From assembly GCF_000381545.1 (NCBI RefSeq), contig NZ_KB906676.1:186001-250000 (forward strand): a stretch of DNA of 64,000 bases, given 5' to 3'. Source of the DNA: Rhodonellum psychrophilum GCM71 = DSM 17998 (lineage in GTDB: Bacteria > Bacteroidota > Bacteroidia > Cytophagales > Cyclobacteriaceae). The translations under genes were made by a program, and so were the position numbers. Shown one piece after another: positions 1 to 45,515 of this stretch (position 1 is its first letter; the number at the start of each line of letters is the position of its first letter). A model generated the notes under the pieces. The model was not told the DNA's origin and did not search any database. It saw only the letters and a list, made by a program, of their open reading frames with translations.

Positions 1-1
1 T

Positions 2-3000
2 CATGAATTGGGCAACAATACCTTTCGGACATATCCTGTTACAACCTTTGGAATTGGGCCACCTGTGCTTTCTTCTGTCGGTTCTGCGCATACTTTTGGA
101 TCTGGTGTCGGAAGCATGAAATTTAGTCCAGATGGGTCAAAATTGGCGGTAACCATCCAGAATGGGAGTTGCAGTCGCTTGGAAATTTTTGATTTTAACC
201 AAACTACGGGGAAGCTCACCGAATATGCACTCTTGGAATTGAGCTGCAGTGGGGAAGACGTATATGGATTGGAGTTTTCAGATGACAGCAATAGGGTTTT
301 TGTCTCCTACACTGGTGGTGGAGGAAAGATCGAAGAGTTTTTGATCAAAAACCCGGATGCCCAGGGGGCGGCAACCCCTTCTGCCTGCGCCACATGTTTT
401 GAAAATGCAGGAGATAAAGCGGCTGTTGAATCCTGCATATTGGGCACGAGAAACACATTGAGCAGCGCCGGTCCATTCGGAGCTTTGCAAATAGGGCCTG
501 ATGGACAGATTTATGTGGCAAGGCCCGGTCAAAATGTATTGGGAACCATCAATGCAGGGCAAGGTTGCGCAAACAGTGCTTATGTAGAAATGGGGACATC
601 CACCCTAACCGGAACTACGAATTTGGGACTGCCTTCTTTTGTCCAAAATTCAGGCAGCAGTATTCCTGAGCCAACCTTGGGTGGGCCGGACCGACTGTGT
701 CTGGATCCCGAAAACGGGACAGAAGCATTGTTTGAGGGTGGAGGGGAACCGGATATTGACAGTTATTTCTGGACAATTGTGTCAGAGAATGGTCAAGCAG
801 TATTGACCAATTTTGGAGGTCCAGGTGAGGAGTTCCAAACCTTAACACATGTCTTTCAGGAAGATGGCACCTTCACCGTTTCGCTAAGAGTGGACAGGTG
901 TGGTGATGCCAATTACTTTGAAGCAAGCATGGAAGTGGTCGTGGTCGCTCCACCACCAATCACCCTCGTGGATGATGTCACGCTCTGTAGCGGGACGCCC
1001 GTAACCTTGGTGGCGATTGATGGATATGATCCCAATGAAGGCTTGTATGATTTTGAATGGAGAAATGCCGCCGGTCAATTGATTGGGGATGAAAATTCCA
1101 ACAGTATTGCAGTAGAGGAAGAAAGCATCTACACCGTTACGGTTTCCTACAGAACTCCCAGTGGTTCTGATACTGTGTTTTTTGATGTCTGTCCGGCTTC
1201 AAAATCTGTCTTTGTAGGTCCAGCCTTTGAATTTGACTTGACGCAAAGTGCGGAGGAAGTCTGTTACGACGAGACATTGGTGGTGTTTGCCCCGAATACT
1301 CCTGTGATAGGAGACTGGTATTATCAGCAGGTCGGTAGTCCCACCAGAACATTGATTGGTGAGTTTTTTGAATTGGAATTGATTCCAACAGACCTTCCCG
1401 CTCCAGGCTTGTACGAAATCATATTTATCACCGAAGACCCGATTGTTCCGGGATGTTTGGTGGAGAAAAAACTTGAACTTTTGGTGCATCCCTTGCCCAA
1501 TTTTGAGCTGTTGGTCTTGACCGATGCGGATGACTGCGCCACGCCAAACGGGAGTTTCGAAATTACGGCGCTTCTGGATGCGGAACGGATAGAAATATTG
1601 GAAACCGGGGAGGTTTTTAACAATGTCAATGCCGGGGATGTGTTGCCGGTGATTTCAAATCTTGAACCAGGCATTTACACGGTTCAGGCTACAAACAGTT
1701 TTGGCTGTGTGTTCACAAGAAGCGTGACCATCGCGAACCTCAACCCACCAGTAGCGCTTGAATACACAGTCGCAGTCAATCCGGAAGTGTGTGGACCTAA
1801 TGAGGTTGAAAATGGTGCAGTGATCATTACCTTCTCCAATGGACCTCAATCAGGATCTTATGTCCTTACCCGACAGCAAGATGGGCTACAGTTTTCAGGA
1901 ACAATTACAAATCAAGAAATTGTGACAATCTCTGTGCCCGAAGGGGATTATGCTGTGGAGGTTTCGGACGCCCTCGGCTGTACCTTGCCTGAACCTGTCA
2001 ATTATTTGGTCGATGAAAAATTAGAGGTCGATTTCACCGTGCCGACGAATTTGATCGCCTGCGGATTATTTTCATTTATTCCACAGACCAATCAGTCCTT
2101 GGTTTTCACCTTGACCGATGCATTAGGAAATGGAATAGCAGCGGATGCAAATGGGGAATTTACCCTTTTGGCTTCCGGGGCTTACCAGATCACCGGAGAG
2201 GATCCAACTGGAATTGACTGTCCTAGGGTCAGAACCATGAATGTTGAGATCAACGGTCCAATAGGATTTTCTCTTTCCGGACCGGCTGATCCCTGTGCGA
2301 CGGCAATTTCTTATGATGCTATTCTCAATGGTACTGATCCTGCGGATGTTTTCTTCTTTTGGAAAAATGAAAGCGGGGCTATTGTCGGAAGAAATCAAAC
2401 TTTTTTTCCAGCAGCTGCAGGGGAGTATTCTCTTGAGGTGCAGCCACGGGCAGGTTCATTATGCCCAGCCGCTCCGATTGATTTTACGGTGGAGGATTTT
2501 GGTCAACCAGTGAATGTGGTTTTGGATGCATTGCCTTTCTGTGGCGATGATCCTTTCACCACGATTACTGTTGTCGCAGATTTAACCAATGTGGCATCCA
2601 TCCAATGGTTTTCCCTTCAGGGGGGGGTGGCGACCTTGCTTCCAGGATTTGATGATCAGCAAACCATTACCGTCATTGAAAATGGTGTCTATCAAGCAGT
2701 TCTTTTTAGTGGGTTTGGATGTGAACTTGGAAGGCAGCAGGTCCAAATCACCAAATCCTTTATCACGCCTCCGGTATTGGAAACACGCTATGTCATTTGT
2801 GCCGCCGAAAATGTGGTCAATGTTTTAGATCCCGGAGTTTATGACAATTATTCATGGGAATTGGAAGGTGAAGAAGTGTCCAATTCACCGACATTTACAC
2901 CCACCCTGCCGGGGAATTATGCACTCACAGTGAGCGATGAATTTGATTGTCTTTTTACGATTGAGTTTGTCGTGGAGGAGGATTGTGAATTGAAGATAAT

Positions 3001-3283
3001 CTTCCCTAACGCCATGAGACCGAGCGATCCTTCGAGGCTCTTTGTTGTGTATGCCAATGATTTTATCGACCATGTAGATGTGTTGATTTATAACCGATGG
3101 GGAGAATTGATTTATTTTTGTGAAAGTGAAAATGTTCAGGGTGAGGAAGTTTTATGCACATGGGATGGGACTGTTGGAGGGAGAGTTGTGCCCATCGGAA
3201 CATATCCCGTGATTGTGAGGTTTAGAAGTGAGAATCAAAACATAGTGAAAACCATTAGAAAATCCATTGTAGTAATCGAGTAA
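2..3283 (+). CDS. Large secreted T9SS type B protein, propeller plus PKD/Ig-like modules (5' partial)
   Basis: The reading frame is open to the window edge, so the N-terminus and signal peptide are missing; the internal TTG at 8 is unlikely to be the start. The first ~210 visible residues resemble a YVTN/WD-type beta-propeller (MKFSPDGSKLAV, GLEFSDDSNRVFVSYTGG, IGPDGQIYVARPG). Then comes the GPDRLC motif that opens a PKD-like domain, several Cys-containing Ig-like modules, and a C-terminal CHU_C/gliding-motility-associated sorting domain (FPNAMRPSD, YNRWGELIYF, GTYPV). Proteins with this tail are exported by the type IX secretion system and placed on the cell surface. It is the first of five tandem paralogues and the only one with the propeller. 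It carries one copy of the ~250-residue module (DNA about 2027-2763) and a G8 tract at 2620-2627. The architecture call is firm; ligand and role are unknown. Confidence 0.85.
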   Translation, partial: HELGNNTFRTYPVTTFGIGPPVLSSVGSAHTFGSGVGSMKFSPDGSKLAVTIQNGSCSRLEIFDFNQTTGKLTEYALLELSCSGEDVYGLEFSDDSNRVFVSYTGGGGKIEEFLIKNPDAQGAATPSACATCFENAGDKAAVESCILGTRNTLSSAGPFGALQIGPDGQIYVARPGQNVLGTINAGQGCANSAYVEMGTSTLTGTTNLGLPSFVQNSGSSIPEPTLGGPDRLCLDPENGTEALFEGGGEPDIDSYFWTIVSENGQAVLTNFGGPGEEFQTLTHVFQEDGTFTVSLRVDRCGDANYFEASMEVVVVAPPPITLVDDVTLCSGTPVTLVAIDGYDPNEGLYDFEWRNAAGQLIGDENSNSIAVEEESIYTVTVSYRTPSGSDTVFFDVCPASKSVFVGPAFEFDLTQSAEEVCYDETLVVFAPNTPVIGDWYYQQVGSPTRTLIGEFFELELIPTDLPAPGLYEIIFITEDPIVPGCLVEKKLELLVHPLPNFELLVLTDADDCATPNGSFEITALLDAERIEILETGEVFNNVNAGDVLPVISNLEPGIYTVQATNSFGCVFTRSVTIANLNPPVALEYTVAVNPEVCGPNEVENGAVIITFSNGPQSGSYVLTRQQDGLQFSGTITNQEIVTISVPEGDYAVEVSDALGCTLPEPVNYLVDEKLEVDFTVPTNLIACGLFSFIPQTNQSLVFTLTDALGNGIAADANGEFTLLASGAYQITGEDPTGIDCPRVRTMNVEINGPIGFSLSGPADPCATAISYDAILNGTDPADVFFFWKNESGAIVGRNQTFFPAAAGEYSLEVQPRAGSLCPAAPIDFTVEDFGQPVNVVLDALPFCGDDPFTTITVVADLTNVASIQWFSLQGGVATLLPGFDDQQTITVIENGVYQAVLFSGFGCELGRQQVQITKSFITPPVLETRYVICAAENVVNVLDPGVYDNYSWELEGEEVSNSPTFTPTLPGNYALTVSDEFDCLFTIEFVVEEDCELKIIFPNAMRPSDPSRLFVVYANDFIDHVDVLIYNRWGELIYFCESENVQGEEVLCTWDGTVGGRVVPIGTYPVIVRFRSENQNIVKTIRKSIVVIE

Positions 3284-3286
3284 CCT

Positions 3287-4030
3287 ATGATCGTCCTTAT
3301 ATCACCCGCCAAGACTTTGGATCTTAGTACCACTGATAATGTAACCTATACAACTCCGGATTTTCAAAAAGAAACAAGGGAACTTGTCTCCATTATGAAG
3401 AAAAAATCCACGGAGGAAATCAAGAAGTTGATGAGTGTGAGCGAAAACATCGCTGCGCTAAACGAAAGACGGTACCAAGATTTTAAAAAAACTTTTGAAC
3501 CCACCCATGCAAAACAGGCTTTGTTGACTTTCAACGGAGATGTGTATACTAAAATAGACGTTGAAAATTACAGTGATGCCGATTTTGAGTTTGCGCAAGC
3601 GCATTTGAGGATTTTGTCGGGATTGTATGGTTTGTTGAAACCCATGGATCTGATCCAAGCTTATCGGTTGGAAATGGGGATCAGATTGGGAAATAAAAAG
3701 GGAAACAATCTTTATGAATTTTGGGGGACAAGGATTGCAAAAGCAATCAATGAAGTGGCCAACAAGAGACCGATCATCAATCTGGCCTCGCAAGAATATT
3801 TCAAGGCGGTAGATCAAAAAACCATCGAATCCACTGTAATCAGCCCTCTGTTTCAGGAATACAGAAATGGAAAATTCCAGACGATCGGGCTTTTTGCCAA
3901 GCAAGCAAGAGGAATGATGACGAATTATATCATCAAAAACAGAGTGGAAGATCCTGAGCAACTTAAGCTTTTCAATGAAGCGGGTTATCAACTGACAGGA
4001 GACGAAAAGGATTGGCGATTTGTGCGGTAG
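3287..4030 (+). CDS. yaaA: Peroxide stress protein YaaA (DUF328/UPF0246)
   Basis: A 247-residue protein beginning MIVLISPAKTLDL, the family's conserved N-terminus. Further conserved stretches are FNGDVYTKIDVENYS, LRILSGLYGLLKPMD, NLASQEYFKAV and GLFAKQARGMMTNYII. Length fits the family (E. coli YaaA is about 258 residues). In E. coli YaaA lowers free intracellular iron during peroxide stress and protects DNA from Fenton damage. It is cytoplasmic: no signal peptide or membrane segment is seen. The ATG lies only 3 nt after the stop of the preceding surface-protein gene, so the two are probably co-transcribed although no functional link is evident. An AT-rich gap of 246 bp follows. Identification is confident from family motifs. 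Confidence 0.93.
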   Translation: MIVLISPAKTLDLSTTDNVTYTTPDFQKETRELVSIMKKKSTEEIKKLMSVSENIAALNERRYQDFKKTFEPTHAKQALLTFNGDVYTKIDVENYSDADFEFAQAHLRILSGLYGLLKPMDLIQAYRLEMGIRLGNKKGNNLYEFWGTRIAKAINEVANKRPIINLASQEYFKAVDQKTIESTVISPLFQEYRNGKFQTIGLFAKQARGMMTNYIIKNRVEDPEQLKLFNEAGYQLTGDEKDWRFVR

Positions 4031-4276
4031 GACAATAGTCCTTAAATCACCCAGATCAAGGAAAGCTTTCTTGACCCTTCTGCCCGAATTTCTGCCTTGT
4101 ATTTTTATAGGCGTTTAATACTGATTTTTTGAATTTTTTACCCTAAAGTTGGTGATGAATATTTTTTCTACATAATTATATGTTTTTTACATGAAAAAAT
4201 ATGTATTTTATTCTCTAAATATTTTTAATGAATCAGGAATAATTGTAAATTGAATTGTAATTTTTGACTTTTTTTT

Positions 4277-7200
4277 ATGGCTAAGGGGATCATTATATGG
4301 TTTTTGTTTTTGCCTGTGTTTTTAACTGGGAAGTCAAATCCTTTGGGAGTGGGGGTACGCAATGAAAACCCTTTATCAGAGCTCAAAGAACAGAACAAGG
4401 AATTGGGAATTTTTTCCCCTGATCAATTTTGCCTTTATTTTGGGAGCGTTATCGGGGATTTTTTTGGAGGGGGAAATCCCGATACCGATGTTTATTCCTG
4501 GAAGATCCTAAAGCCTGATGGAAGCCTGCTCGTGGAAAAGGTAGGTGGATTCCAGACTTTTAGCCATACTTTCTCGATTCTGGGGGAATATGAAGTCCAA
4601 CTTAAAGTTAGGAGAGGTTTGGAGGAGGTTTTTTCTGGCCACAAAAATTTCCAAGTGGTGAAAGGGGCTGATTTGTTGTTGGAGAGCTCCTATTTGCTTT
4701 GCGATGACGGAAATGCGGTTTTAACGCTTTTTGATCCCAAAATCCCATTCCTTGACAAATATGTCATTGAGTGGAAAAACAGCAATGGTGAAGTTCTAGG
4801 AAAGGCCAATAGTATCGTCGTCAATAAAGCAGATGTGTATTCTGTTTATTTCTACTCTTTGGATGGAGAAGGCGAATTGACCTGTCCTTATACCGCAAAC
4901 ACTTTGGTGTACTATCCAGAAGATTATTCACTTCAAATTTCCAAAACAGAGGAATGTGATGGGGGCACAGTCATCCTTGTGACTTCAAATAAGAATGTTT
5001 CTGGAAATTGGTACTATCAAAAAGAAGGGGATTCTGAAATGAAATTTTTGAATGAAGGTTCCCAATTGAGTTTTTCATCAAGTGGAGACCTAGAAGGTCC
5101 TGGGAATTATCAAATAGTCTTCAAATTGGACAATCAGGATAAAATCTACTGTAAAACCCAAGAAAGTATTTCCTATAAGGTTTTGCCATCTGTCGAATTT
5201 TCTATGTCCTTGGAAAAAGGCTCAGGAAATTGTGCGGATGATGATGGGGTTTTATTGTTGACGGCTTGGTCAGATATGGATATCGTCCAAATATTGGGTA
5301 CCGACATCGTCCTGAATGACTTAAAAATGGGGCAGACCTATCCAATACCCAATCTGAAAGCGGGGGTTTACCATGCACGAGGAAGGTTAGGGAACTGTTC
5401 AAAAGTAAGAGCGGCCATTGTCCCGCTCCTTGAACCACCAGAATCCATCAAATTTAACATTGTTGAAATCCGAGGAGAAGCTTGCAACGACATCGGAAAG
5501 ATTCCAGGCTTGATCAGGATAAAAATGGCGCAGATGGGATTCATGGGAGATTATAGGGTGCTGAACACGGGAGGAGTTGAAATCGCATCAGGTTCAATTG
5601 TCGCAACAGAACAGGAATTTGAGATTTCAATTGGTCCAGGCAACTATTATCTGGAGGTTGTAGAGGAAGACGGCTGTAAAAACCCATACATTGAGCGATT
5701 TGAGGTCCCATCAAAAGAACAGATTGCTTTTTCGGCACCTCAGAGATTCACCGTTTGCGAATCTTTTGAATACACTCCGGAAGTGGATGGGTTGGAGGAC
5801 CTGTCCTTTACCCTCACCTATCCAGATGGGAAGAAAGTCCACAAAATCCAAGGTGAGCCCTTTGTCCTTGATCAAGCAGGGAAATATTTCTTGCTTGGTG
5901 TTGACATGGATGGTAATCGTGGTTTTTGTCCAAGAGTATTGAGTTTTGAGGTAGTGCTTACCGCTCCCATAACCTACGAGCCGGAACTGGTTTTCCAAGA
6001 TTGTTTTGGGAATAAGGCATTCAGTGCCAATCTATCTGGTACAGATCCGAGCAAGGTTGTCATCAAATGGTACAATGAAAAGGATGAAATCGTGGGGAAT
6101 GGGATTTTATTGTTTCCAACTTCCCATGGTGAATTCAAGCTTGATGTTCAGCCTTTGAACAGTCAATCCTGTCCGTATCCCCCAAGAATCTTTCAAGTTG
6201 AAAAGGCTGATTTGGAAGAAGAATTATCGCTTAGTGCCACTCCCTTTTGTCCATCCGAAAAAAAATCGGTCATCAGTCTTGAAGCAGAATTTGACATTAT
6301 CCATTTGGTCAAATGGATTTACTATGACAACCAAGGAGCCAGTATTGAGCTATCCGAATTTCAGGAGCTACGAGAGATTCTTGTTGAAAAACAGGGAGTT
6401 TATGAGGTGGTGGTCTTCAACAAAGGCAATTGTGAATTGGGCAGAACAACAATTGAAATAAAGGAAAGCGTTGATCTGGTGGAGTTTGATGTACCGGAAG
6501 AGTTGTTCGTCTGCAAAGCTTATGCATTCACGCCAGTGACTCTCCAAGATCTTGTTTTCACAATGGTATTGCCCGATGGGCAAACCTTAGTTCGGGGTAA
6601 GGACGAAGCTTTTTTAATAGATCAGCAGGGAGAGTATGTTTTATCGGCAACCAGCAGTGATTTGTCGAAGAATACTTGCCCGACGACCAAGATTTTCAAG
6701 GTGAAGGTCAACCCACCCGTGGAGTATGATGTGGTCTTCGTGGAGCAGGATTGTTCCGGGAAATCCGTATATCGAGCGGAGCTTTTTGGAGCCGACCCAG
6801 ACTCCCTGATTATCAATTGGTACAATTCAGATGGGTCGGTCATCGGGAATGCAGCATTGATTTCATTGACGAGTCATGGGGATTTCAGTTTAGAAGTGTA
6901 TCCAAAAGGAAGCTTTTCCTGTCCTGATCCGCCGATTTCGTTTTTCGTCGAAGAACCAATCGTCAATCTGGATCTCAAGATTGTCACCAACACACTCTGT
7001 CCTGGGGCCGAATTTTCTTTGCTGACTTTGGAAACCGATCAAAATCGGGTTTTTCGGATTGAATGGTATTTCACTGATTTTCGTGGAAATAAATCCCCAA
7101 TCCATCCCGCCAATCCTATGGAAATATTTGCCAAGGAGGAGGGGACTTATGAAGTTGTGATTTTCAGCGAAAAAGGCTGTGTTCTGGCAAAAGACCAAAT

Positions 7201-7741
7201 CCTTTTGATGAGAAGCATGGATGCCGTGAGACCATCGGTAAAGGAAGAGTATACCGTCTGTTTTGAAAACAATATTGGGGAAAGGATTGATCCGGGATTA
7301 TTCAAAATTTACAATTGGTATTTTGAAGGAAGCTTAATTGCAACATACCCTACGTTCAAGCCCACAGCAGCTGGAAAGTACAGCCTGGTGGTCAGCAGTA
7401 AGGAAAATTGCGAATACAGTGTAGATTTTTATGCTGTGGAGGAATGTGAATTCAGGTTGGTATTTCCCAATGCCATCAAACTTGGAGATCCGGATCGGCA
7501 TTTTTTGATTTATGCCAATGGAGATGTCGAGGAACTTGAAATTTGGGTATTTGACAAATGGGGAGGGCTGATTTTTCATTGCAAGAATGACAATATTCTT
7601 TCGAAATCCTCGGGTTGCCATTGGGACGGGACACGCAATGGGGAGAGGATCCCGCCAGGAGTTTATAGCGTGAAACTATTCTATAAAAGGACGGGCATGG
7701 GAGCGGGTACCGACTTTGCCACCGTTTTGGTACTCGAATGA
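4277..7741 (+). CDS. Large secreted T9SS type B protein, PKD/Ig-like, two long modules
   Basis: A 1,154-residue protein with a hydrophobic N-terminal export signal (residues ~3-18). It lacks the exact GPDRLC motif but keeps the aligned PKD-like start (FSPDQFCLYFGSVIGDFF, then DTDVYSWKI). Ig-like modules with paired cysteines follow. A ~250-residue module occurs twice in direct tandem (DNA about 5723-6478 and 6479-7222), each copy opening with a V-P-x(4)-V-C-type strand and closing with GNCELGR or GCVLAKD. The C-terminus is a CHU_C/type B sorting domain (FPNAIKLGDPDRHFLIY, VFDKWGGLIFHC, WDGTRNGERIPPGVY). Predicted to be a cell-surface protein exported by the type IX system. Closest relatives are its tandem neighbours. 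Binding partner unknown. Confidence 0.87.
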   Translation: MAKGIIIWFLFLPVFLTGKSNPLGVGVRNENPLSELKEQNKELGIFSPDQFCLYFGSVIGDFFGGGNPDTDVYSWKILKPDGSLLVEKVGGFQTFSHTFSILGEYEVQLKVRRGLEEVFSGHKNFQVVKGADLLLESSYLLCDDGNAVLTLFDPKIPFLDKYVIEWKNSNGEVLGKANSIVVNKADVYSVYFYSLDGEGELTCPYTANTLVYYPEDYSLQISKTEECDGGTVILVTSNKNVSGNWYYQKEGDSEMKFLNEGSQLSFSSSGDLEGPGNYQIVFKLDNQDKIYCKTQESISYKVLPSVEFSMSLEKGSGNCADDDGVLLLTAWSDMDIVQILGTDIVLNDLKMGQTYPIPNLKAGVYHARGRLGNCSKVRAAIVPLLEPPESIKFNIVEIRGEACNDIGKIPGLIRIKMAQMGFMGDYRVLNTGGVEIASGSIVATEQEFEISIGPGNYYLEVVEEDGCKNPYIERFEVPSKEQIAFSAPQRFTVCESFEYTPEVDGLEDLSFTLTYPDGKKVHKIQGEPFVLDQAGKYFLLGVDMDGNRGFCPRVLSFEVVLTAPITYEPELVFQDCFGNKAFSANLSGTDPSKVVIKWYNEKDEIVGNGILLFPTSHGEFKLDVQPLNSQSCPYPPRIFQVEKADLEEELSLSATPFCPSEKKSVISLEAEFDIIHLVKWIYYDNQGASIELSEFQELREILVEKQGVYEVVVFNKGNCELGRTTIEIKESVDLVEFDVPEELFVCKAYAFTPVTLQDLVFTMVLPDGQTLVRGKDEAFLIDQQGEYVLSATSSDLSKNTCPTTKIFKVKVNPPVEYDVVFVEQDCSGKSVYRAELFGADPDSLIINWYNSDGSVIGNAALISLTSHGDFSLEVYPKGSFSCPDPPISFFVEEPIVNLDLKIVTNTLCPGAEFSLLTLETDQNRVFRIEWYFTDFRGNKSPIHPANPMEIFAKEEGTYEVVIFSEKGCVLAKDQILLMRSMDAVRPSVKEEYTVCFENNIGERIDPGLFKIYNWYFEGSLIATYPTFKPTAAGKYSLVVSSKENCEYSVDFYAVEECEFRLVFPNAIKLGDPDRHFLIYANGDVEELEIWVFDKWGGLIFHCKNDNILSKSSGCHWDGTRNGERIPPGVYSVKLFYKRTGMGAGTDFATVLVLE
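5723..7222 (+). repeat. Tandem pair of ~250-codon protein modules
   Basis: Two consecutive in-frame modules, 5723-6478 (252 codons) and 6479-7222 (248 codons). They align along their whole length at protein level: VC-E/K-x-F/Y strand, a D/E-QDC-x-GN segment, IKWYN/IINWYN, a Q/YP...CP.PP motif, CP/LCP, and a terminal EGxYEVVxF...G-C. Nucleotide identity is modest, so the duplication is old. The paralogues starting at 12110 and 15192 have one copy. Confidence 0.8.
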
Positions 7742-8131: not shown

Positions 8132-11100
8132 ATGAATTTAAAAAGTACCCTTGTTTTGTTGTCCCTCTTTGGGATGTTTCTTTTGACATTGTCGATTGTG
8201 AAAAGCAATGCCTTTTCTGGTAATGATTTTTTGAATCAGAAAGAAGCATCACAATTGGTGAACATGCCTGATATCATTGGTCCGGATCGGGTCTGCTTGG
8301 TGGTTGGAAATGTTCTAGAAGAGTTTTTTGGAGCAGGAATACCAAGTATTGATTTTTACCAGTGGAAGGTCACTGGCCCCAATGGTGTGGTGCTGAGGTT
8401 GGCAAGTGGAGGGCCTGCTTTGCAGACTTTTCCGTTTACTTTTTCCGAATTGGGTGAGCATACTATTGAACTCAAGGTCAGAAGGGGGGTGGTCCAAGAC
8501 TTTTTCACGAAGATCAAAAAGGTGAATGTGGTAAAAGGGGCAAAAGTACTGTTGAAAGAAAATTATGATTTGTGTGGCAGTGCTGGGCTAAACTTGATGG
8601 CGATAGATCCATTGACGCCAAATATTGGTGAATTTGTTTTTGAATGGACAGATGCTGATGGAAATACCGTGGGAAATGCCAATAACATAGCGATTTCGAA
8701 TACAGGTAATTACCAAGTCAGATATTATTTTGTAAATACTTTGGGTAATCCAGAATGTGAAAACATAGTAAAAACAGAGGTTTCTGAAGCGTTGTCCTTC
8801 AGCCTTTCATCAAACAAACCTATCGCTTGTCCCGAGGATTTTATTCAAATTTCTTCAAGCCTACCCTTGTTTGGGAAATGGTCCTACCAGAAAAACGGTA
8901 TTGGAACAGCAGTATCAATGGGGTCATCTAAAAACCTTGGCTTTCGTCCTTCGGTCGATTTGGATGGCTATGGTGATTATACCATTTCCCTATCTATCGA
9001 AAATCCGGATTTGCCAGGCTGTGAGATTACCAACAGCCTGAATATAAAATACAACCCAAGTCCGAGTTATGATGTGATTGTCGCAGAGCCGGCCAGCGGG
9101 TGCTCTGCTGCTGATGGGTCATTGACGATTACGGCATTCACGGATTTGGATCAACTCTATTATGAGATAGATCCGCTGACGATTTCTTCACCCATTTCCT
9201 TACAAGCAGGACAATCCTTTAAATTTGAAGGACTGCAGTCCGGGGTTTATAGTTTCGTTGGGAATTTGGGAGGATGTCCATTCAATCAAGCTTTTGTTGT
9301 GCCGCTTGCCAATATACCTCCGGAATTGGAATTTTCAATCGAAGGAGTTTATGATGAAATTTGTACTCCAACCGGCAAAAATCTCGGAGGATTTAAGGTC
9401 ACGAGACCAAATGGAACGACCGATGCCTTTTATAATCTGATTGATGAGATGGGAGATCTGACTAGGTCAGGTGTAATTCAGAAAGACACTGATTTGATCA
9501 TAGAGGTCCGAGGTGGGACTTATTATTTCGAGTTATTCAAAGAGGAAGAATGCGCTTTTCCTAGAATTGAGGAAATCAAAATTTTGGGACTTCCACAAGT
9601 TGACCTTCCTGAAGTGGATGATTTTAATATTTGTGGAAGCTATGATTTCATACCCCTGTCAGGGGATAATGTTTTTTTTACATTAACAGATCCCAGCGGA
9701 GGGGTCAGTACCAATCCCAAAGGAACTCCCTTTACTTTGGCGCTTCCCGGACTATACACCCTTCTTGCCACGCACAATTCAGACCCGGAATTTTGTCCAA
9801 GGCAACAGGAATTCACTGTCAGTTTGATTTCTGCAGTTGATTTTGAGGTTGAATTTTTCAATCAGGATTGTGTGGGAAATCAGACCTACCGAGCCGATTT
9901 GAAAAACAAGCCCTTAAATGAAGTTCTAATCCGTTGGTTCAATGAATTGGATGAGGAAATAGGTACTGGTTTGGAAATGTATCCTGTCTCGTATGGGATC
10001 TACAAGCTGGACGTACAGCCAATTAACAGTTTTGCATGCCCGATTCCACCCAAGGAATTTGAAGTGAAACGGCCTGTTTTGCAAGTGGATGTCGAATTGT
10101 CTGCTACGCCACTATGTCCGTTTGGTCCCGGAGCAATCATCGACATGGATACAGATTTTGACGAAGTGGATCGAATCGATTGGGTTTATTTCGACTTGGA
10201 CAATAATCAAGTAGAACTTACAGGGGAACAAAACAAACGATCCATCACCGTCACAGATGAAGGATTATACGAAGCCATTGTATGGAACAGGTTTGATTGC
10301 GAGTTGGGAAGAGAAATCATCACCATAAAGAAAAGTACCAATTTGGTTAATTTTGATATCGAACCAGTTTATACGGTTTGTGAGCGTTTTGAGGTCGGAC
10401 CGACTACCAATGAAGATCTTACTTTTACCATTACATATCCAGATGGTCAACAAACCATCATCAATTCCCAAGAAACCTTTACCCTGAATCAAGAAGGATC
10501 CTATACGATCAGGGGAGAAAGCAATGACGTTAATAATTTGGTTTGCCCGAATGAAAAGATTTTTGAAGTTTTTATCGTCTCGCCAATAGATTTTGAGCCA
10601 AAACTTATTGATCAAACCTGTATCGGACAATTCACCTTTGAAGCAGATATTTTTGGAACTGATTCGACTCTTGCCCTTTTCACCTGGAGGAATGAAAATG
10701 ACCAGGTGGTGGGTGACCAACAGCTTTTCATTTCCAGTATTCCCGGCAATTATTCGCTGGAAGTACAGCCAAAAGGCAGCATGCCATGTGATATACAGCC
10801 CAAAAGTTTCGAGATCATAAAGCCGGTTTTAGAGTTGGATGTTTTCTTAAATGCAGGCAGCTTGTGTCCAGAGGCTGATTTTGCGGTTTTGGTAGTGGAA
10901 GCAGACTTCACTTCAGTCGCCAAAATAGAATGGTGGTTTACGGACATCAATGGAAATCAATCAGCCTTGGATCAGTTGAATAAACAAGAAATCTCTGCCT
11001 TCAATGAAGGAACTTATGAGGTGAGGGTTTTCAATGCTCTGGGTTGCCCATTGGGAGAGGACAGAGTACTGGTGTTAAGAAGTACGGATACGGTAAGGCC

Positions 11101-11611
11101 TCAGGTTGAGGAAAAATATTTGATCTGTGCACAATACGAAATTGGCGAAACGATCAATCCAGGGGTTTTCTCCAATTACAACTGGTTTCTAAATGACAGT
11201 CTGGTTTCAAACAGTGCCAATTACAAACCGCAACTGGTCGGTGAATATTCACTTGTAGTCAACAGCGGTGAAGGTTGTGAATATTCCGTAGCATTTACTG
11301 TGGAGGAGGAATGTGAGCTGAAACTTGTGCTGCCGAGTGCGATCCGCCCTGGTGATCCAGAAAGAGGCTTTTTGATCTTCACCAATTATTTGGTAGATGA
11401 AATGGAAGTTTGGGTTTTCAATAAATGGGGAACATTGGTTTTCCATTGTGAAAATAAATCCTTGATCTCAGAGGAGTCCACGTGTTTTTGGGATGGAATG
11501 ATTGATGGTGAAAAAATCCCAAATGGAGCCTATGCCATAAAAATAGCCTTCAAAAACATCGAAAAGAATATCAATAAAACCTTGTTGAAAACGATTTTGG
11601 TGGTTGATTGA
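8132..11611 (+). CDS. Large secreted T9SS type B protein, PKD/Ig-like, two long modules
   Basis: A 1,159-residue paralogue of the gene at 4277. It has an N-terminal signal (hydrophobic residues ~6-24), then IGPDRVCLVVGNVLEEFFG opening the PKD-like domain, and Ig-like Cys modules. Two tandem copies of the ~250-residue module follow (DNA 9599-10345 and 10346-11092, 249 codons each). The CHU_C/T9SS type B sorting tail reads LPSAIRPGDPERGFLIF, VWVFNKWGTLVFHC, CFWDGMIDGEKIPNGAY. Its C-terminal third is closer to the 12110 paralogue than to the 4277 one: both have the TNYLVDE-x-EVWV-NKWGTL block, which suggests a more recent split or gene conversion. Predicted surface-exposed; role unknown. A hairpin about 2-65 nt after the stop may end transcription. 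Confidence 0.87.
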   Translation: MNLKSTLVLLSLFGMFLLTLSIVKSNAFSGNDFLNQKEASQLVNMPDIIGPDRVCLVVGNVLEEFFGAGIPSIDFYQWKVTGPNGVVLRLASGGPALQTFPFTFSELGEHTIELKVRRGVVQDFFTKIKKVNVVKGAKVLLKENYDLCGSAGLNLMAIDPLTPNIGEFVFEWTDADGNTVGNANNIAISNTGNYQVRYYFVNTLGNPECENIVKTEVSEALSFSLSSNKPIACPEDFIQISSSLPLFGKWSYQKNGIGTAVSMGSSKNLGFRPSVDLDGYGDYTISLSIENPDLPGCEITNSLNIKYNPSPSYDVIVAEPASGCSAADGSLTITAFTDLDQLYYEIDPLTISSPISLQAGQSFKFEGLQSGVYSFVGNLGGCPFNQAFVVPLANIPPELEFSIEGVYDEICTPTGKNLGGFKVTRPNGTTDAFYNLIDEMGDLTRSGVIQKDTDLIIEVRGGTYYFELFKEEECAFPRIEEIKILGLPQVDLPEVDDFNICGSYDFIPLSGDNVFFTLTDPSGGVSTNPKGTPFTLALPGLYTLLATHNSDPEFCPRQQEFTVSLISAVDFEVEFFNQDCVGNQTYRADLKNKPLNEVLIRWFNELDEEIGTGLEMYPVSYGIYKLDVQPINSFACPIPPKEFEVKRPVLQVDVELSATPLCPFGPGAIIDMDTDFDEVDRIDWVYFDLDNNQVELTGEQNKRSITVTDEGLYEAIVWNRFDCELGREIITIKKSTNLVNFDIEPVYTVCERFEVGPTTNEDLTFTITYPDGQQTIINSQETFTLNQEGSYTIRGESNDVNNLVCPNEKIFEVFIVSPIDFEPKLIDQTCIGQFTFEADIFGTDSTLALFTWRNENDQVVGDQQLFISSIPGNYSLEVQPKGSMPCDIQPKSFEIIKPVLELDVFLNAGSLCPEADFAVLVVEADFTSVAKIEWWFTDINGNQSALDQLNKQEISAFNEGTYEVRVFNALGCPLGEDRVLVLRSTDTVRPQVEEKYLICAQYEIGETINPGVFSNYNWFLNDSLVSNSANYKPQLVGEYSLVVNSGEGCEYSVAFTVEEECELKLVLPSAIRPGDPERGFLIFTNYLVDEMEVWVFNKWGTLVFHCENKSLISEESTCFWDGMIDGEKIPNGAYAIKIAFKNIEKNINKTLLKTILVVD
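9599..11092 (+). repeat. Tandem pair of 249-codon protein modules
   Basis: Two in-frame direct modules of exactly 747 nt each (9599-10345, 10346-11092), homologous to the pair in the 4277 gene. The second starts at LVNFDIEPVYTVCERFEV, which aligns with QVDLPEVDDFNICGSYDF of the first. Confidence 0.8.
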
Positions 11612-11612
11612 A

Positions 11613-11676: not shown

Positions 11677-12109
11677 AGTTTTATTTCGCAATTGCTTTGA
11701 ATTTTTTTTGGAGTTGGAATGAATTCAGGTTTGGTAGCAATTGATTTTTGGAGAATCATTTGGCTATTGGTGTTTTGCTTTGAATTGTTTGGGGCCAGCC
11801 ATATATCGGGTTAAATTTTCACGAAATTTCTGACATTGCCTACAGAATTAAAATCAACTTTATTGGAATTTTTCGGTGGTAGTATCCTCTTTTGCAACGA
11901 AAGAACTTCCATCGGTTTGGAGTCTTAGCGAATCATATTGTATTGCTTTTGAATTAGGAAATGAGGAATTAAAGAAATCAATCTTAGGAAGAATTGATGG
12001 TATTGTTTTTGATATTGTGTCATGTCCTCAATTCCAATGAGGATTTGCCATACAGATTAAAGGGTTAATTGTTCCTTAATTTGAATTTCAGCACGTAAAA
12101 TCACCGGAA
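11677..12109. other. Intergenic gap, no gene supported
   Basis: About 430 bp upstream of the fourth surface-protein gene. A 67-codon open stretch on the plus strand ending near 12048 has no start codon and no recognisable similarity, so it is not called. The string CCATATATCGGGTTAAA near 11809 resembles the right end of the dispersed ~170-bp element, but the rest of an element is absent. No promoter motif was identified. Confidence 0.4.
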
Positions 12110-14851
12110 ATGCCCACTTCTTCTCTAAAAAAAAATATCCTCAATTTGATGACATTTACCCTGTTTTGGGTGTTTTTTGCTGGGGTTTTAAATAGCGCTT
12201 GGAGCAGGGTGTCGGGCTATAATTTGCCACAAAACCTTTTCAGTGCCTCCACTTCCAATGATCCGGAATTGACGGGGCCTGATAGACTCTGCATAGTTTT
12301 CGGAGGTGTTATCGGTCAATTTTCTGCTAATGGAGATTCGGGAACCGATGTCTATACCTGGCTGATCACCTCTGCCGGTGGCGCCGAAATTTTCAACAGA
12401 ACAGGAGGTTCGACCTTTCAAAATATCAATGTTCCTTTTTCCGAAATTGGAGAATATACCATTGCCTTGACTGTTAGAAGAGGCAATGACATTATTTATC
12501 AAACCAGCAGAAACCTTACTGTCCTTAAAGGTCCAGAATTGGCAATTCTTCCCGATTATTTGCTTTGTGGTGGGGAGCCCGCTCTGATTACAGCTTTAAA
12601 TCCTTCCACACCAAACCTTGATCAATATACCTTTGAATGGACCAATGGAGCAGGTGAAATCGTGGGGACCGAAAACTCTCTTTTGGTAACTGCCGAGGGG
12701 ACCTATGCAATATCTCTGTTTTTTACCAATTCCAGCGGAGGAGCAGATTGCTTGATCAACGGAGTCACCTACGTAGGACCGCCAAGTGATTTCAGCTTGA
12801 ATATATCATCGTCGCAGACTTGTTTGGGAGAAACGATCACAGTCTCGCCAAATATCCCGGTGAGTGGTGATTGGGCTTATGTTAAGGAGGGAAGCCCGGA
12901 AAGGATTTCTTTGGGTTCGGGCTTTGGGCTAAGTTTGGATACAAGTGAGGATTTAGGTGGTCCAGGAATTTACCAGTTATTTTTCAGCTATATCAATCCA
13001 AGAAATCCCGTTTGTGCAACAGAAAGACAAGTTGCCATTGAAATCAACGAAGGGCCAAAATTCCAATCCTCCCTTGTCCAATCCGCTGCGAATTGTACCG
13101 CCAACGATGGTGAATTCAATATTGTCACCATCTCGGTTCTCGATAAATTGGAAATAGAAGAACTGGGTTATCAAAATTTGAATGTTGGTCCAAACGAAAC
13201 GCTTTCTTTCACCAATATCAAACCTGGAATTTATACCCTTTCAGCTTCGCTCAGCGGCTGTACCCTTACAGAGATCCTGATAGTCCCAAATCAGGATCCG
13301 CCGATCGACCAAATTTATGATGTGGAATCCTTTGGGGAAAGTTGCAATGATTCCGGAAAAGAGGATGGTGAAATCAAAGTGATTTTTCCAATGGGCGTAT
13401 TTACGGGAACTTACCGTGTTGTAAATGAATCCGGAAATGAATTGTCTTCTGGCAGCATCACCAATACCTCTTCTTTTGTGATTCCAGCCCCCAATGGAAA
13501 TTATGCATTGGAGATTTTGAATGAAAATGGATGCACACTGCCATGGCCAACACTGTTGGAAATCCCAGAAATCAATTTTGTGACATTTTCGATTCCTGGA
13601 GAATTCATTGTTTGCGAATCTTTTGAATTGATCCCTGCGACGGGGCAGGATCTCAACTTCACGCTAACGACGCCATCGGAAGAAGAAATTATCAAAGGCT
13701 CAGGTCAAGCTTTTATCATCAACCAACCCGGGGTTTATTTGCTCAAGGGAATAGGTTTGGGAACTGAATCCGCGCTTTGCCCAAGAATCAGAGAATTTGT
13801 TGTTACTATTTCTGATCCATTTGATTTTGAACCAGTTTTGGTGGATCAGGATTGTTTCGGCATTCAATTGTTTGAAGCAAAATTGAATGGAATTGAACCT
13901 GAAAAAGTAAGTGTCCGGTGGATGAACGAACAATTGGAGATTGTAGGTCGTGGGTTACAATGGTTTCCGATTTCATTAGGGACGTTTTATTTGGATGTCC
14001 AGCCTTTGGGGAGTGGGATTTGTCCCGCCAGCCCCAAGCAGTTTCAGGTGGAATTGCCTGTTCTTCAGGTGGATGTTGAGTTGCAGGCAGGATCAATCTG
14101 TGAAAATCCTTCTTCAACCACGATTTCCATGCAGTCAGAACTTGATCAAATCTCAAGGATTGAGTGGGTTTATATTGATTTGGAAAACAATCAATTCATT
14201 TTGACGGATTTTGAAAATGAAACGGATATAGAGATCCAGGATGAAGGGACTTATGAGGTCATTGTTTACAATGAGAGGGGTTGTGAGCTCGGTCGGGACC
14301 TCATCCTGATCATGAAAAGCATGGACGAAAAGCGGCCGGAAGTCAATGCTCTATATTCGATTTGTGCAGAAAGCAATTATGGAGAAACCATTAATCCCGG
14401 TGATTTTGAAAGTTACAATTGGTTCTTTGGAGAGGACATGCTTGTGTCTTCCAGTGTTGATTTTAAACCTCAATTGGCAGGTCAATATTTTCTTCTGGTC
14501 AAGAGTAGAGAAGGGTGTGAATATTCCGTCCCCTTTACCGTCAAGGAAGAATGCGATCTAAAAGTCTCTTTTCCCAATGCCATCATCCCAGCTACGGAGG
14601 GGAAAGGGTTTTTGATCTATACCAATTATTTGGTGGATGAATTGGAAGTTTGGGTTTATAACAAATGGGGAACATTGATCTTTCACTGTACAAATAGTGA
14701 TTTGATCGCCGAAGAATCGACTTGTTTCTGGGATGGGACCATAGATGGTGAGAAAATCACCAATGGCACATATTCCATCAAAGTAAATTTCAAAAATTCC
14801 GAACGCAACATCAATAGAACCATGCTGCAGTCCCTTTCTGTTTTGGATTGA
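12110..14851 (+). CDS. Large secreted T9SS type B protein, PKD/Ig-like, one long module
   Basis: A 913-residue paralogue of the preceding genes. It has an N-terminal export signal (hydrophobic residues ~10-30), then ELTGPDRLCIVFGGVIGQFS opening the PKD-like domain (TDVYTWLI, YTIALTVRRG). Ig-like modules with conserved Cys and WAYVKEG-type strands follow. There is a single ~250-residue module (DNA 13580-14329), then the CHU_C sorting domain (FPNAIIP, EVWVYNKWGTLIFHC, CFWDGTIDGEKITNGTY). It is about 245 residues shorter than its two upstream neighbours, matching the loss or non-duplication of one module. Predicted to be exported by the type IX system to the cell surface; ligand unknown. Confidence 0.87.
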   Translation: MPTSSLKKNILNLMTFTLFWVFFAGVLNSAWSRVSGYNLPQNLFSASTSNDPELTGPDRLCIVFGGVIGQFSANGDSGTDVYTWLITSAGGAEIFNRTGGSTFQNINVPFSEIGEYTIALTVRRGNDIIYQTSRNLTVLKGPELAILPDYLLCGGEPALITALNPSTPNLDQYTFEWTNGAGEIVGTENSLLVTAEGTYAISLFFTNSSGGADCLINGVTYVGPPSDFSLNISSSQTCLGETITVSPNIPVSGDWAYVKEGSPERISLGSGFGLSLDTSEDLGGPGIYQLFFSYINPRNPVCATERQVAIEINEGPKFQSSLVQSAANCTANDGEFNIVTISVLDKLEIEELGYQNLNVGPNETLSFTNIKPGIYTLSASLSGCTLTEILIVPNQDPPIDQIYDVESFGESCNDSGKEDGEIKVIFPMGVFTGTYRVVNESGNELSSGSITNTSSFVIPAPNGNYALEILNENGCTLPWPTLLEIPEINFVTFSIPGEFIVCESFELIPATGQDLNFTLTTPSEEEIIKGSGQAFIINQPGVYLLKGIGLGTESALCPRIREFVVTISDPFDFEPVLVDQDCFGIQLFEAKLNGIEPEKVSVRWMNEQLEIVGRGLQWFPISLGTFYLDVQPLGSGICPASPKQFQVELPVLQVDVELQAGSICENPSSTTISMQSELDQISRIEWVYIDLENNQFILTDFENETDIEIQDEGTYEVIVYNERGCELGRDLILIMKSMDEKRPEVNALYSICAESNYGETINPGDFESYNWFFGEDMLVSSSVDFKPQLAGQYFLLVKSREGCEYSVPFTVKEECDLKVSFPNAIIPATEGKGFLIYTNYLVDELEVWVYNKWGTLIFHCTNSDLIAEESTCFWDGTIDGEKITNGTYSIKVNFKNSERNINRTMLQSLSVLD

Positions 14852-15191
14852 AAATTCTCTGTTTTCGCTAAATCCACGAAGTTGATATTCTTTTAAACAT
14901 GGTTATTTTGTGTAAAAAAATATTTAAATTAAAACATTAATTCAATAATATCATTTTTTATATATATAAAATTACTTTTTCTGCATTTTAATCTCAATAT
15001 TTGTTAATTGGGAATTTGTTTTGAGCTCAATCGATATGGATAGTTTCCATGTTTTAAGGTAGCCTTGTTTTGATTGTTTTAGCACTTTCGGTGTATTCAA
15101 AAAGGCAGTCAAAAATAAGACAATAGTCTTTGGTCATTAGTAAATGCTGTTTTTGGGCATTGAGTTTTTTCGTTTTTTAAGCATCGGTTTT
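14852..15191. other. AT-rich intergenic gap
   Basis: 340 bp of strongly AT-rich sequence (a poly-A/T stretch around 14925-15000). It contains no gene and no convincing terminator or promoter motif. The downstream frame is open from 15144, but the residues before 15192 look untranslated. Confidence 0.4.
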
Positions 15192-17927
15192 ATGAACAAA
15201 TGGTTTGTAGCAACTTTGATGGCCTGCTCATTTTGGATAAATCCTTTTATGGAATGTCTCGGCAATCCATCTCCTGGAATCAATAGAGGATTTATGGTTC
15301 CTTTGGAATGGAACGAGAAAATGGACATTCCTTTTTTTATCGATCCAGAGCTTACTGGTCCGGATCGGCTTTGTATGATTTTTGGCAGTGTCATCGGGGA
15401 CTTTTCAGGCCTTGGAGAGCCCGCAACAGATGTCTACAGTTGGCAAATCATTTCCCCAAGCAATGTGCAGCTTTTTAACCGTACAGGGGGAGGAACCTTT
15501 CAGAATATCAGTTTTTCTTTTGGACAAATCGGCAACTACAGCGTGAGTCTAAGTGTGAGGAGGGGGAATACTGTGATTTATAATGCAACTAAATCCCTGT
15601 CAGTCATCCAGGGTCCTTCCTTAATACTTCAGCCCGACTATTTGCTTTGCGGTAGAAACACCGTCAGTGTTTCCGTTCTTGACTCCAATACGCCAAACCT
15701 TGACCAATATACCTTCCAATGGAAAAATGCCCAAGGCGCTATCGTGGGGACAACAAATACCTTGGAGGTGTCGAGGGAAGGTACCTATTCGGTTTCCCTT
15801 TTTCTGAATAATGAAAGCGGAGGAGCGGACTGTCTGATCAATGGCTCCACTTTTGTCGGCCCTCCAAACGATTTCAAGCTTAATATTTCCAAAACCCTAG
15901 TCTGCTTGGGCGAAAGGATTACAGTAACGCCCGATGTGCCATTTTTAGGGGATTGGTCGGTCCTAAAAGAAGGAGCAACTTCCCGTGTCGATATGGGCAC
16001 TTCCTTTTCACTCAATTTCAATACAGACAATGAATTGGGTGGTGCTGGATTATATCGGGTGTTTTTCAATGTAGCAGATGAAAAACATCCAGATTGCGCT
16101 TCGGAGAGGGAAGTGTTGGTGGAGGTCAAAAATGGGCCGAAATTCCAATCCAACCTGCTGAAGAATGCTTCAGATTGCGAAATGGAAAACGGAGCATTTC
16201 AAGTTACCGCAAATTCCCCCTTGGATATTTTGGAGATCAAGGAATTGGGATCAAAAATTTTTGACATTGACCAAAATGAGAATATGCTTTTTGAAGGGCT
16301 AAAGCCGGGAATTTATACATTGGAAGGTACTTACAATGGATGTACCCGTTCCAGTATCATTATTGTCCCTAATGATTCTCCTCCTGCTACTCAAAGGTTT
16401 CAATTGGAAAAGATTGGGGAAAGTTGTACCGATACAGGCAAAAAGCTCGGCGAGATCAAGGTGGTTTTTTTGGATGGTGCTTTTGAAGGGGAATTTCGAT
16501 TGGTCAATCAAAGGGGAAGCATTGTCCAATCGGGGACAATCCCAAATTTGCCTTCCCTTGAATTGACGGTGTCAGGAGGGAATTTCGCCTTGGAAATAGT
16601 GGACACATCAGGATGTACCCTGCCCGAAGAGCTGGTATTTACCATTCCGGGCAAAAATTTTGTCTCCTATTCCGTGCCTGAGGAAATCAATGTTTGTGAG
16701 ACTTTTGAATTCATTCCATTCACCACGGATAGTCTTTTATTCAGTTTGACTTTCCCGAACGGAGAGGTAATCAACAAAAATGCAGGCGAGGCCTTTACTT
16801 TGACCGAGGCGGGCAGCTATTCTTTAATGGGATCCAGCTTGCTGGCTAATCCTGATCGCTGTCCCCGAAAAACGGATTTCAATGTTTCACTTTTTGAACC
16901 CATTGTGTTTGAAGAAAAACTTGCAAGTCAGGATTGCGCAGGCAATGTGGTGTATGAAGCCGAATTGTTTGGAAGAAATCCCAATACTGTCAGTATCCGC
17001 TGGCTCAACGAAAATGGGAGCATTGTGGGTAGAGGATCCCAATTTTTTCTCCCTGCATTTGGGCGGTATTTTCTGGAGGTACAACCATTGGAAAGCGGCT
17101 ATTGCCCCTCCTCAATTCACGAATTTTTCGTGGAAACACCTGTTTTTTTCGTAGACGTAGCCATTTCAGCGGAGATGTTTTGTCCGAATGCTCCTAGTGC
17201 AACCTTAAGTGTCCAAACAGATTTGAATACAGGGGATAGGCTGGAATGGATCTTTACCGATCTAAACGGAAAGCAAGAAATCCTCAAAGGCTTTGAAAAC
17301 AATAAAACCGCAGAAGTCGAAAATGAGGGCAGTTATGAAGCGGTAGTTTACAATGATCGGGGTTGTGAATTGGGGAGGGATTTGATTTTGCTGATGCACA
17401 GTGCTGATGATCCGCCAACTTTGGAAAGTATTTATTATATCTGTTCAGAAACCAATTTTGGGGAAACCATTGATCCGGGTGCTTATGAAGCATATGAATG
17501 GTATTTTGAAGGGAATTTGGTTTCTCAATCCCCAACTTTTAAACCCAGAGAAGTTGGGGATTATGAAATCATCGTCACCAACGCATTGGGCTGCTCTTTT
17601 CTGGGGAAATTCTCCGCTTTTCAGGATTGTGTTTTTAAATACGTGTTTCCTACGGGAATGATCCTTAGCGATGAAAAAAGGCATTTTGAAATATTCGTGA
17701 ATGATCCTGTGGAGGAGGCAAAAGTCTGGATACATAACAAATTCGGGTCTCTGGTTTTCTTCTGTGAAAACTACAGCGTCGTGCCAAGCGTATCCTTCTG
17801 CAACTGGAATGGGAATGAAAATGGGAGAAACGTGCCCTCTGGCACCTATATTGTCACCTTGGTCTATCGTAGTGAAAGATTTGGGTTAAATGAAAAGGTC
17901 AGCAAGAGCCTCCTGATTTTGGATTGA
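15192..17927 (+). CDS. Large secreted T9SS type B protein, PKD/Ig-like, one long module
   Basis: About 911 residues. I place the start at the ATG at 15192 (MNKWFVATLMACSFW), which gives a compact export signal; an in-frame ATG at 15144 would add 16 atypical residues. ELTGPDRLCMIFGSVIGDFS opens the PKD-like domain, followed by Ig-like Cys modules closely matching the 12110 paralogue. One ~250-residue module lies at about 16662-17408. The C-terminal CHU_C/type B sorting domain is more diverged (FPTGMILSDEKRHFEIF, VWIHNKFGSLVFFC, WNGNENGRNVPSGTYIV). It is the last of the five-gene array. Predicted surface protein of unknown ligand. Confidence 0.86.
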   Translation: MNKWFVATLMACSFWINPFMECLGNPSPGINRGFMVPLEWNEKMDIPFFIDPELTGPDRLCMIFGSVIGDFSGLGEPATDVYSWQIISPSNVQLFNRTGGGTFQNISFSFGQIGNYSVSLSVRRGNTVIYNATKSLSVIQGPSLILQPDYLLCGRNTVSVSVLDSNTPNLDQYTFQWKNAQGAIVGTTNTLEVSREGTYSVSLFLNNESGGADCLINGSTFVGPPNDFKLNISKTLVCLGERITVTPDVPFLGDWSVLKEGATSRVDMGTSFSLNFNTDNELGGAGLYRVFFNVADEKHPDCASEREVLVEVKNGPKFQSNLLKNASDCEMENGAFQVTANSPLDILEIKELGSKIFDIDQNENMLFEGLKPGIYTLEGTYNGCTRSSIIIVPNDSPPATQRFQLEKIGESCTDTGKKLGEIKVVFLDGAFEGEFRLVNQRGSIVQSGTIPNLPSLELTVSGGNFALEIVDTSGCTLPEELVFTIPGKNFVSYSVPEEINVCETFEFIPFTTDSLLFSLTFPNGEVINKNAGEAFTLTEAGSYSLMGSSLLANPDRCPRKTDFNVSLFEPIVFEEKLASQDCAGNVVYEAELFGRNPNTVSIRWLNENGSIVGRGSQFFLPAFGRYFLEVQPLESGYCPSSIHEFFVETPVFFVDVAISAEMFCPNAPSATLSVQTDLNTGDRLEWIFTDLNGKQEILKGFENNKTAEVENEGSYEAVVYNDRGCELGRDLILLMHSADDPPTLESIYYICSETNFGETIDPGAYEAYEWYFEGNLVSQSPTFKPREVGDYEIIVTNALGCSFLGKFSAFQDCVFKYVFPTGMILSDEKRHFEIFVNDPVEEAKVWIHNKFGSLVFFCENYSVVPSVSFCNWNGNENGRNVPSGTYIVTLVYRSERFGLNEKVSKSLLILD

Positions 17928-45509: not shown

Positions 45510-45515
45510 GGGGAA

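Follow-up and report, generated by a model that had tools for sequence, protein, structure and literature searches.

The locus at the start of the window, by which we mean the whole 64,000-nucleotide stretch of Rhodonellum psychrophilum analysed here, raises the question of how five giant, related genes for putative surface proteins came to lie in one row and which carrier their products would use. The original prediction was a local expansion of one adhesin family that can diversify by recombination. On balance we favour another reading, which we consider reasonably probable: the locus would encode type IX-exported, cysteine-bearing Ig/PKD-like adhesins built on a core with a PorP/SprF carrier, with satellite genes that undergo birth and death and exchanged a sorting tail at least once. 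No published description of the locus was found in open-licence papers, the only ones covered. The following features were located (L015 is the record of this locus that extends beyond the window).

1–3283, plus strand: gene 1 (G1), the C-terminal 1093 of its 1838 aa, from the open reading frame 2–3283, which is open at the window edge
L015:10768–16284: the full G1, which starts 2233 bp upstream of the window
L015:9639–10685, minus strand, outside the window: PorP/SprF carrier gene, divergent partner of G1 (PF11751)
3287–4030, plus strand: yaaA (PF03883, 294 bits), part of the conserved core
4277–7741, plus strand: gene 2, satellite SA2, 1154 aa, with two 250-aa units
5690–7225, plus strand: tandem 250-aa units of gene 2, residues 472–734 and 728–983 (hmmsearch, HU profile)
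8132–11611, plus strand: gene 3, satellite SA3, 1159 aa, with two 250-aa units
9566–11092, plus strand: tandem 250-aa units of gene 3, residues 479–738 and 731–987 (HU profile)
12110–14851, plus strand: gene 4, chimeric satellite SB, 913 aa, with a gene 5-lineage body and a tail apparently from the gene 3 lineage
14405–14848, plus strand: tail of gene 4, residues 766–913
15144–17927, plus strand: gene 5, satellite SB, 927 aa
18075–19319, plus strand: MFS transporter (PF07690, 88 bits; synteny), the far border of the satellite slot in relatives where found

The five open reading frames lie head to tail on the plus strand at the predicted places. The predicted size of 913 to about 1,160 aa holds for genes 2–5 (1154, 1159, 913, and 927 aa), but gene 1, which the window edge cuts, encodes 1838 aa. 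The five proteins are homologous over their whole length and form one paralogous family, as predicted (pairwise identity 30–46% over 862–1143 aligned columns; BLASTP E down to 0). A five-gene profile searched against the 5.19 Mb genome (E 0.001) found body homology confined to the array, and its six other matches were tail only.

Each protein consists of an N-terminal hydrophobic stretch, a body of about 430 aa (HN), one or two units of about 250 aa (HU), and a tail of about 170 aa (HC) that ends in CHU_C; G1 adds propellers at its N-terminus. The body and tail blocks occur in this order in 86 of 86 array proteins from 40 loci, and the unit is doubled in 24 SA proteins only. This second copy accounts for the greater length of genes 2 and 3. 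A partial unit was found in G1 of L053–L057, L066, and L067, and none was found in G1 of L059. The cysteine scaffold is far better conserved than the remaining sequence: invariant cysteines occupy eight of nine body positions (86/86 proteins), all six unit positions (102/102 units), and three of five tail positions (86/86). These cysteines probably form disulfides. A candidate Sec signal peptide would lie in the hydrophobic N-termini of the array reading frames; the gene 4 model has a helix at residues 6–28. Judged from this anatomy, the five genes would encode surface adhesins made of strings of cysteine-bearing Ig/PKD-like domains followed by a divergent type B-like (CHU_C) tail.

We compared the locus with those of 39 relatives of the same family (Cyclobacteriaceae), a non-random sample picked for profile matches (at E 1e-30 a match was obtained in 154 of 295 genomes; the search scored the top two candidates per genome only). 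The recurrent order is PorP and G1 back to back, then yaaA, then any satellites and, in the regions that include one, an MFS gene. PorP, G1, and yaaA occur together in 37 of the 39 relatives, and PorP and G1 without yaaA in the other two; the M48 peptidase gene found beyond PorP in R. psychrophilum is also there in 37 relatives. Counting our own locus, the PorP/SprF partner gene is present at 40 of 40 loci. L068 (G262:C7:1–15000), a second, fragmented M48-PorP-G1-yaaA cassette in one genome, may reflect decay, contamination, or bad assembly; it is not included in this count and, like array reading frames shorter than 700 aa, was excluded from all trees. The carrier, G1, and yaaA make up an old core in the relatives. 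The original prediction treated yaaA as an interruption of the array, a description that does not fit the 37 relatives in which yaaA follows G1, eight of them satellite-free. In our locus yaaA starts 3 bp after G1 (gap 3284–3286); 33 of 38 loci, ours among them, have a gap between -8 and +17 bp. We observed in this connection that yaaA, a peroxide-stress gene, is tightly coupled to a cysteine-rich surface protein.

The number of satellites after yaaA differs between species; a comparison of copy number between strains had been proposed as a check. Within the compared loci, which reach about 12 kb past G1 and less at contig ends, so that satellites elsewhere would be missed, 10 relatives have no satellite, 16 have one, and 13 have two (8, 16, and 13 among the 37 with yaaA after G1). 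The same order, never with more than two satellites, is seen at loci of Algoriphagus, Cyclobacterium, Echinicola, Belliella, and Pararhodonellum, some of which recur among the 39 relatives; R. psychrophilum has four, the largest row of the 40 compared. The propeller-less satellites (SA with two units, SB with one) would thus form a birth-and-death row behind the old core of carrier, G1, and yaaA. Two observations were made outside the array. A G1-like protein of about 1420 aa, which shares the C-terminal homology, is encoded elsewhere in Algoriphagus, Belliella, and Lunatimonas (L116–L124; fragmentary in L121). At 44340–48857 of the window, two DUF4221 genes (94 and 93 bits) flank a 357-aa reading frame without a Pfam match.

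A type B (CHU_C) sorting tail had been predicted for all five proteins. CHU_C matches all five at the extreme C-terminus (26.2 bits for the full gene 1), but the PF13585 cut-off of 27 bits is exceeded by three of the five genes in the genome search and by two of the five as proteins, and none reaches the 35-bit cut-off of TIGR04131 (Bac_Flav_CTERM; scores 14.5–16.1). By sequence, the array tails are best described as divergent CHU_C tails that are type B-like and may work like type B tails, outside formal TIGR04131 membership. Type B behaviour is not certain, because a PNGD-like motif, present in four of nine other CHU_C tails of the same genome, is absent from the array tails (86 of 86). The genome has 14 CHU_C matches in total; the array tails are 32–66% identical to one another and 13–30% identical to those nine others. 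Genes 3 and 4 have the closest tails (66%), the gene 2 tail is 48% and 44% identical to them, and the tails of genes 1 and 5 are 32–39% identical to the rest. Most array tails have an extra cysteine pair (72/86 and 73/86 at its two positions).

The genome encodes a type IX system, in line with the original prediction (SprA, 2421.7 bits; GldK and GldJ above cut-off). The Sec system would deliver the adhesins to the periplasm and SprA would provide the outward passage. According to a study on Flavobacterium johnsoniae (PMC12618676), type B substrates require PorP/SprF shuttles, three orphan substrates share one shuttle, Fjoh_1677, and shuttle crosstalk is seen at 68% tail identity. The tails of G1 and gene 5, at 32–39% identity to the others, fall below that crosstalk level.

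The array carrier gene lies 82 bp from G1 on the opposite strand, and its product scores 243.5 bits against PF11751 (cut-off 22.3). A sequence search of the PDB with this carrier gave no match at E 0.01. All 40 orthologues of this carrier have a single cysteine in the C-terminal tail, four residues from the end (LPCPKF, but IPCPKN in two of them), and no other cysteine beyond residue 15; an SprF-type Cys-x-Cys was not found in the tails of these 40. We surveyed 31 of the 40 PorP matches in five genomes, namely those that could be found with the array-carrier profile and read to the end, and in 12 of the 31 tails, five of which belong to array carriers, a cysteine lies 4 to 6 residues before the end. 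The tail cysteine is thus not peculiar to the array carrier. Our own PorP beside gldK (L072, ending RFRF) and four look-alikes have no tail cysteine. Of the seven PorP carriers of the genome, a second one, which stands alone at C2:145808 (L073), ends in PCFFY with the cysteine at the same place. PCFKY-like ends with this single tail cysteine are shared by L073 and relatives L145, L148, L152, and L156, all of them PorP paralogues.

In F. johnsoniae, according to PMC12635249, the CxC of the SprF tail forms a bond with GldK Cys343, which couples the adhesin to the moving track; the same paper states that PorG of P. gingivalis has a single tail cysteine. The only cysteines of our own GldK are Cys29 (lipobox) and Cys241; Cys241 was taken as the putative invariant cysteine by elimination, since no other remains, rather than by alignment to F. 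johnsoniae. The locus resembles SprB/SprF and the other pairs of type B CTD and PorP/SprF in F. johnsoniae (PMC12618676, PMC12635249, PMC9143113) in that a giant T9SS-linked adhesin-like gene adjoins a carrier gene and GldK is present. The array carrier gene is, however, divergent and upstream, whereas theirs lie directly downstream; five substrate-like genes lie at one carrier gene; and most array tails have the extra cysteine pair, with one cysteine in the carrier tail in place of their CxC. The adjacent carrier would most probably bind the tails and retain the adhesins on the surface, and its conserved tail cysteine would allow a bond to the GldK track or to another periplasmic partner. We infer that a single tail cysteine suffices for a bond to the track.

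The carrier could instead be fixed, with the tail cysteine structural or bonded to a non-moving partner, and the proteins would then be static anchoring adhesins that no track carries. We regard this as quite conceivable, though not as the expected outcome. Some type B substrates are static according to PMC12618676 (Fjoh_3952), and the carrier tail has a single cysteine rather than CxC. The gene adjoining the carrier, however, encodes an M48 peptidase and not a PorE-like protein (judged without a PorE profile), and our own GldK keeps Cys241 besides its lipid cysteine.

Which products the carrier would serve is a separate matter. We think that the array carrier would serve the satellites as well as G1. 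The published work on Fjoh_1677 (PMC12618676) gives a precedent for several related tails per carrier, although that shuttle gene lies apart from its substrate genes, whereas the array carrier and its putative substrates lie in one locus. The other possibility, which we hold to be rather doubtful, is that the array PorP serves G1 only and that the satellites are orphan substrates of another carrier, such as the PorP at C2:145808. This PorP has its tail cysteine at the same place, and none of the 14 CHU_C matches of the genome lies near it; the F. johnsoniae orphans likewise use an orphan shuttle, according to the same paper. In addition, satellites are gained and lost while PorP stays single and paired with G1. 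Against this, the satellites keep to the locus of G1 and PorP, and their tails resemble that of G1 (32–39%) more than other tails of the genome (13–29%). Two genomes without a satellite at the locus (G217 and G219) also keep another PorP with a tail cysteine, and co-occurrence therefore does not decide between the two.

The upstream regions also bear on this point. The divergent PorP/G1 gap is 78–83 bp in 24 of 40 loci (starts picked mechanically), and this compact intergenic region (L015:10686–10767 in our genome) contains boxes conserved in sequence across genera. The box TTCGTT(A/T)(A/T)TT occurs upstream of 25 of 40 G1 genes but of none of the 46 satellites, against 3 hits in 860 shuffles; it was chosen from the alignment of the same PorP/G1 regions, and only the comparison with the satellites is a test. 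Our own G1 has the TTCGTT core upstream and not the full box. The satellites therefore seem not to be under the same box as G1, which favours a carrier reserved for G1. A Bacteroidota promoter consensus was of no use upstream of the array genes (6/86 against 12/430 shuffles).

We built block trees from 86 body rows, 86 tail rows, and 102 unit rows to follow the history of the row. G1 forms one group. The SA proteins split by body into two old groups: SA2 contains nine relatives besides gene 2, and SA3 contains 13 besides gene 3. The two groups never occur together in any of the 39 relatives. Genes 4 and 5 fall with 14 relatives in the SB group, and six further members form a distinct SB-prime group next to G1. 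Genes 2 and 3 as sisters were rejected (p-AU 0.0002). Both unit copies, a and b, divide into SA2 and SA3 branches, which places the internal duplication of the unit before the SA2/SA3 split. The topology-test trees for body and tail used 47 of the 86 rows: they omitted every row of the six SB-prime loci and of L057, L058, L059, and L067, and they retained 7 of the 40 G1 rows. On a locus tree of YaaA, M48, and PorP from 36 of the 40 loci, SA2 needs three changes, SA3 four, and SB eight, counts that cannot separate gain from loss. Two loss scars were found: a frameshifted 3′ SB remnant between SA and MFS (L047:12376–12772), and a 23-residue C-terminal remnant directly after yaaA (L057:11097–11165). 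No satellite remnants were found in the other 18 loci tested.

The satellites evolve faster than G1. In the 13 SA3 genomes the median identities are 38% for the SA body, 55% for the SA tail, 56% and 54% for the G1 body and tail, and 73% for PorP; in the nine SA2 genomes they are 47% and 49% for the SA body and tail and 68% and 66% for those of G1; and in the 14 SB genomes they are 40% and 47% for the SB body and tail. The higher conservation of the tail over the body is therefore clear for SA3 only, is not seen for SA2 (47 against 49), and is weak for SB (40 against 47).

Gene 4 is a chimera with a gene 5-like body and a sorting tail that appears to come from the neighbouring gene 3. Its residues 52–480 are 52% identical to gene 5 and 31% identical to gene 3, whereas over residues 766–913 the identity is 35% with gene 5 and 65% with gene 3. 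The maximum chi-square breakpoint, from 328 informative sites, is at residue 788 (about 14471), with a chi2 of 65.6 against 18.0 for the largest of 2000 permutations. The tail tree unites genes 3 and 4 as sisters within SA3 (support 100/93), and a single SB clade including gene 4 was rejected (p 0.014). In the body tree genes 3 and 4 together were rejected (p 2e-56); the AU test does not reject the gene 4 body joined to all SA (p 0.19). The tail DNA shared by genes 3 and 4 is just 71–75% identical, and the exchange is therefore not recent; the longest shared stretch in the array is 75% identical over 248 nt. A second exchange may have given gene 2 its tail, which is nearer to SA3 (45%) than to SA2 (36%), with a body nearer to SA2 (44% against 30% for SA3); the placement of this tail in the tail tree is without support. 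A search by DNA identity found no near-identical conversion tract between array genes. An invertible promoter or phase switch was also considered and rejected, as no inverted repeat of at least 14 nt occurs in six intergenic regions and two inverted pairs of 22–23 nt over 18.2 kb look like chance.

These results bear on the reading as a recent expansion that is still diversifying by recombination, which we now consider improbable. The size of the row, the private pairing of genes 4 and 5 in the body tree, and the exchanged tail of gene 4, perhaps also that of gene 2, would suit it. However, the relatives have separate orthologue groups, at the same locus and in a fixed order, for gene 1, gene 2, gene 3, and the gene 4/5 pair, and only the bodies of genes 4 and 5 and the tails of genes 3 and 4 are closest to each other, which is not true of genes 1, 2, and 3 as wholes. 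The rejected sisterhood of genes 2 and 3, and the lack of both near-identical tracts and switch-type inverted repeats in the searches above, also speak against it. Neither of the two refutations named with the original prediction applies, as the homology extends beyond the tail and the orthologues share one locus. Of the predicted recombination, one clear event stands, the tail of gene 4. For the most part the array seems to consist of ancient paralogues that were retained, with repeated losses; genes 4 and 5 look like the sole lineage-specific pair, from a duplication private to this lineage. Under the birth-and-death reading, satellite bodies would diverge while their tails stay compatible, at least once by exchange with a neighbour (gene 4).

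We examined structure models of gene 4 and of the first 1000 residues of a relative's G1. The G1 model (pLDDT 72.7, pTM 0.44) has two beta-propellers, at about residues 60–405 and 610–980, which match 3hfq (residues 62–405; Z 21.7, rmsd 3.8, 293 aligned) and 4qrj (residues 610–979; Z 22.7, rmsd 3.2, 296 aligned). By sequence, the G1 N-terminus had one weak PDB match (E 0.045). The extra propeller predicted for gene 1 is thus supported, and two propellers rather than one are predicted from the model of the relative. The archaeal surface-layer protein 1l0q has a YVTN propeller followed by PKD, as in G1, and matches the second propeller (Z 22.0, rmsd 3.2, 276 residues), a resemblance of fold only. 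The nearest solved sequence relative of the array tail is the Ig-like domain of FlgD (PF13860; PDB 7eh9, 7bhq; E 4e-5), a flagellar protein whose likeness to the array is limited to the tail domain.

The model of gene 4 is predominantly beta (pLDDT 84.2 on average, pTM 0.52). Its best Foldseek matches are pieces of GhpA of Aureispira, the nearest solved fold (9flp, E 7.5e-29; 9fly, 2.2e-24; 9flw, 2.1e-16), which is a T9SS-secreted hook protein according to PMC11205867; complement and macroglobulin Ig strings follow from E 7e-16. A grappling-hook-like appendage that catches other cells, to which these three best matches might point, is very improbable, given TM-scores of just 0.15–0.23 with the other Ig strings close behind, no match between GhpA and the array sequence profile at E up to 10, and GhpA residue numbers that reach 5009 against 913–1838 aa in the array. 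We take the likeness of the modelled structure to GhpA as a resemblance of Ig strings. The VIA-align rows for gene 4 were mostly multi-domain superpositions with large rmsd and were left out of the functional reading; a GhpA chain is absent from the 50 rows, an absence that excludes nothing.

A more specific proposal would combine the features above into a one-carrier, many-adhesin locus, in which a PorP/SprF carrier bonded to the moving GldK track by one tail cysteine presents alternative adhesins encoded next to it. The adhesin bodies would diverge fast, whereas their tails would remain interchangeable, at times through exchange with a neighbour, and the same moving carrier could thus receive new heads. 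Taken as a whole, this proposal is rather unlikely. The locus itself is best described as conserved, with a carrier, adhesin-like genes, satellites that undergo birth and death, and a single natural exchange of tails; it may work like type B export and is classed as a variant of it. Type B export has so far been described, in the papers covered, mainly as one-to-one pairs of substrate and shuttle in Flavobacterium. The present locus is a natural experiment in which one linked carrier is accompanied by zero to four extra substrate-like genes across genera, and it also offers a naturally swapped tail and a carrier whose tail cysteine is single where that of SprF is double. Two questions could be tested on it: what makes a carrier specific, and whether CxC is required for the disulfide link to the track.
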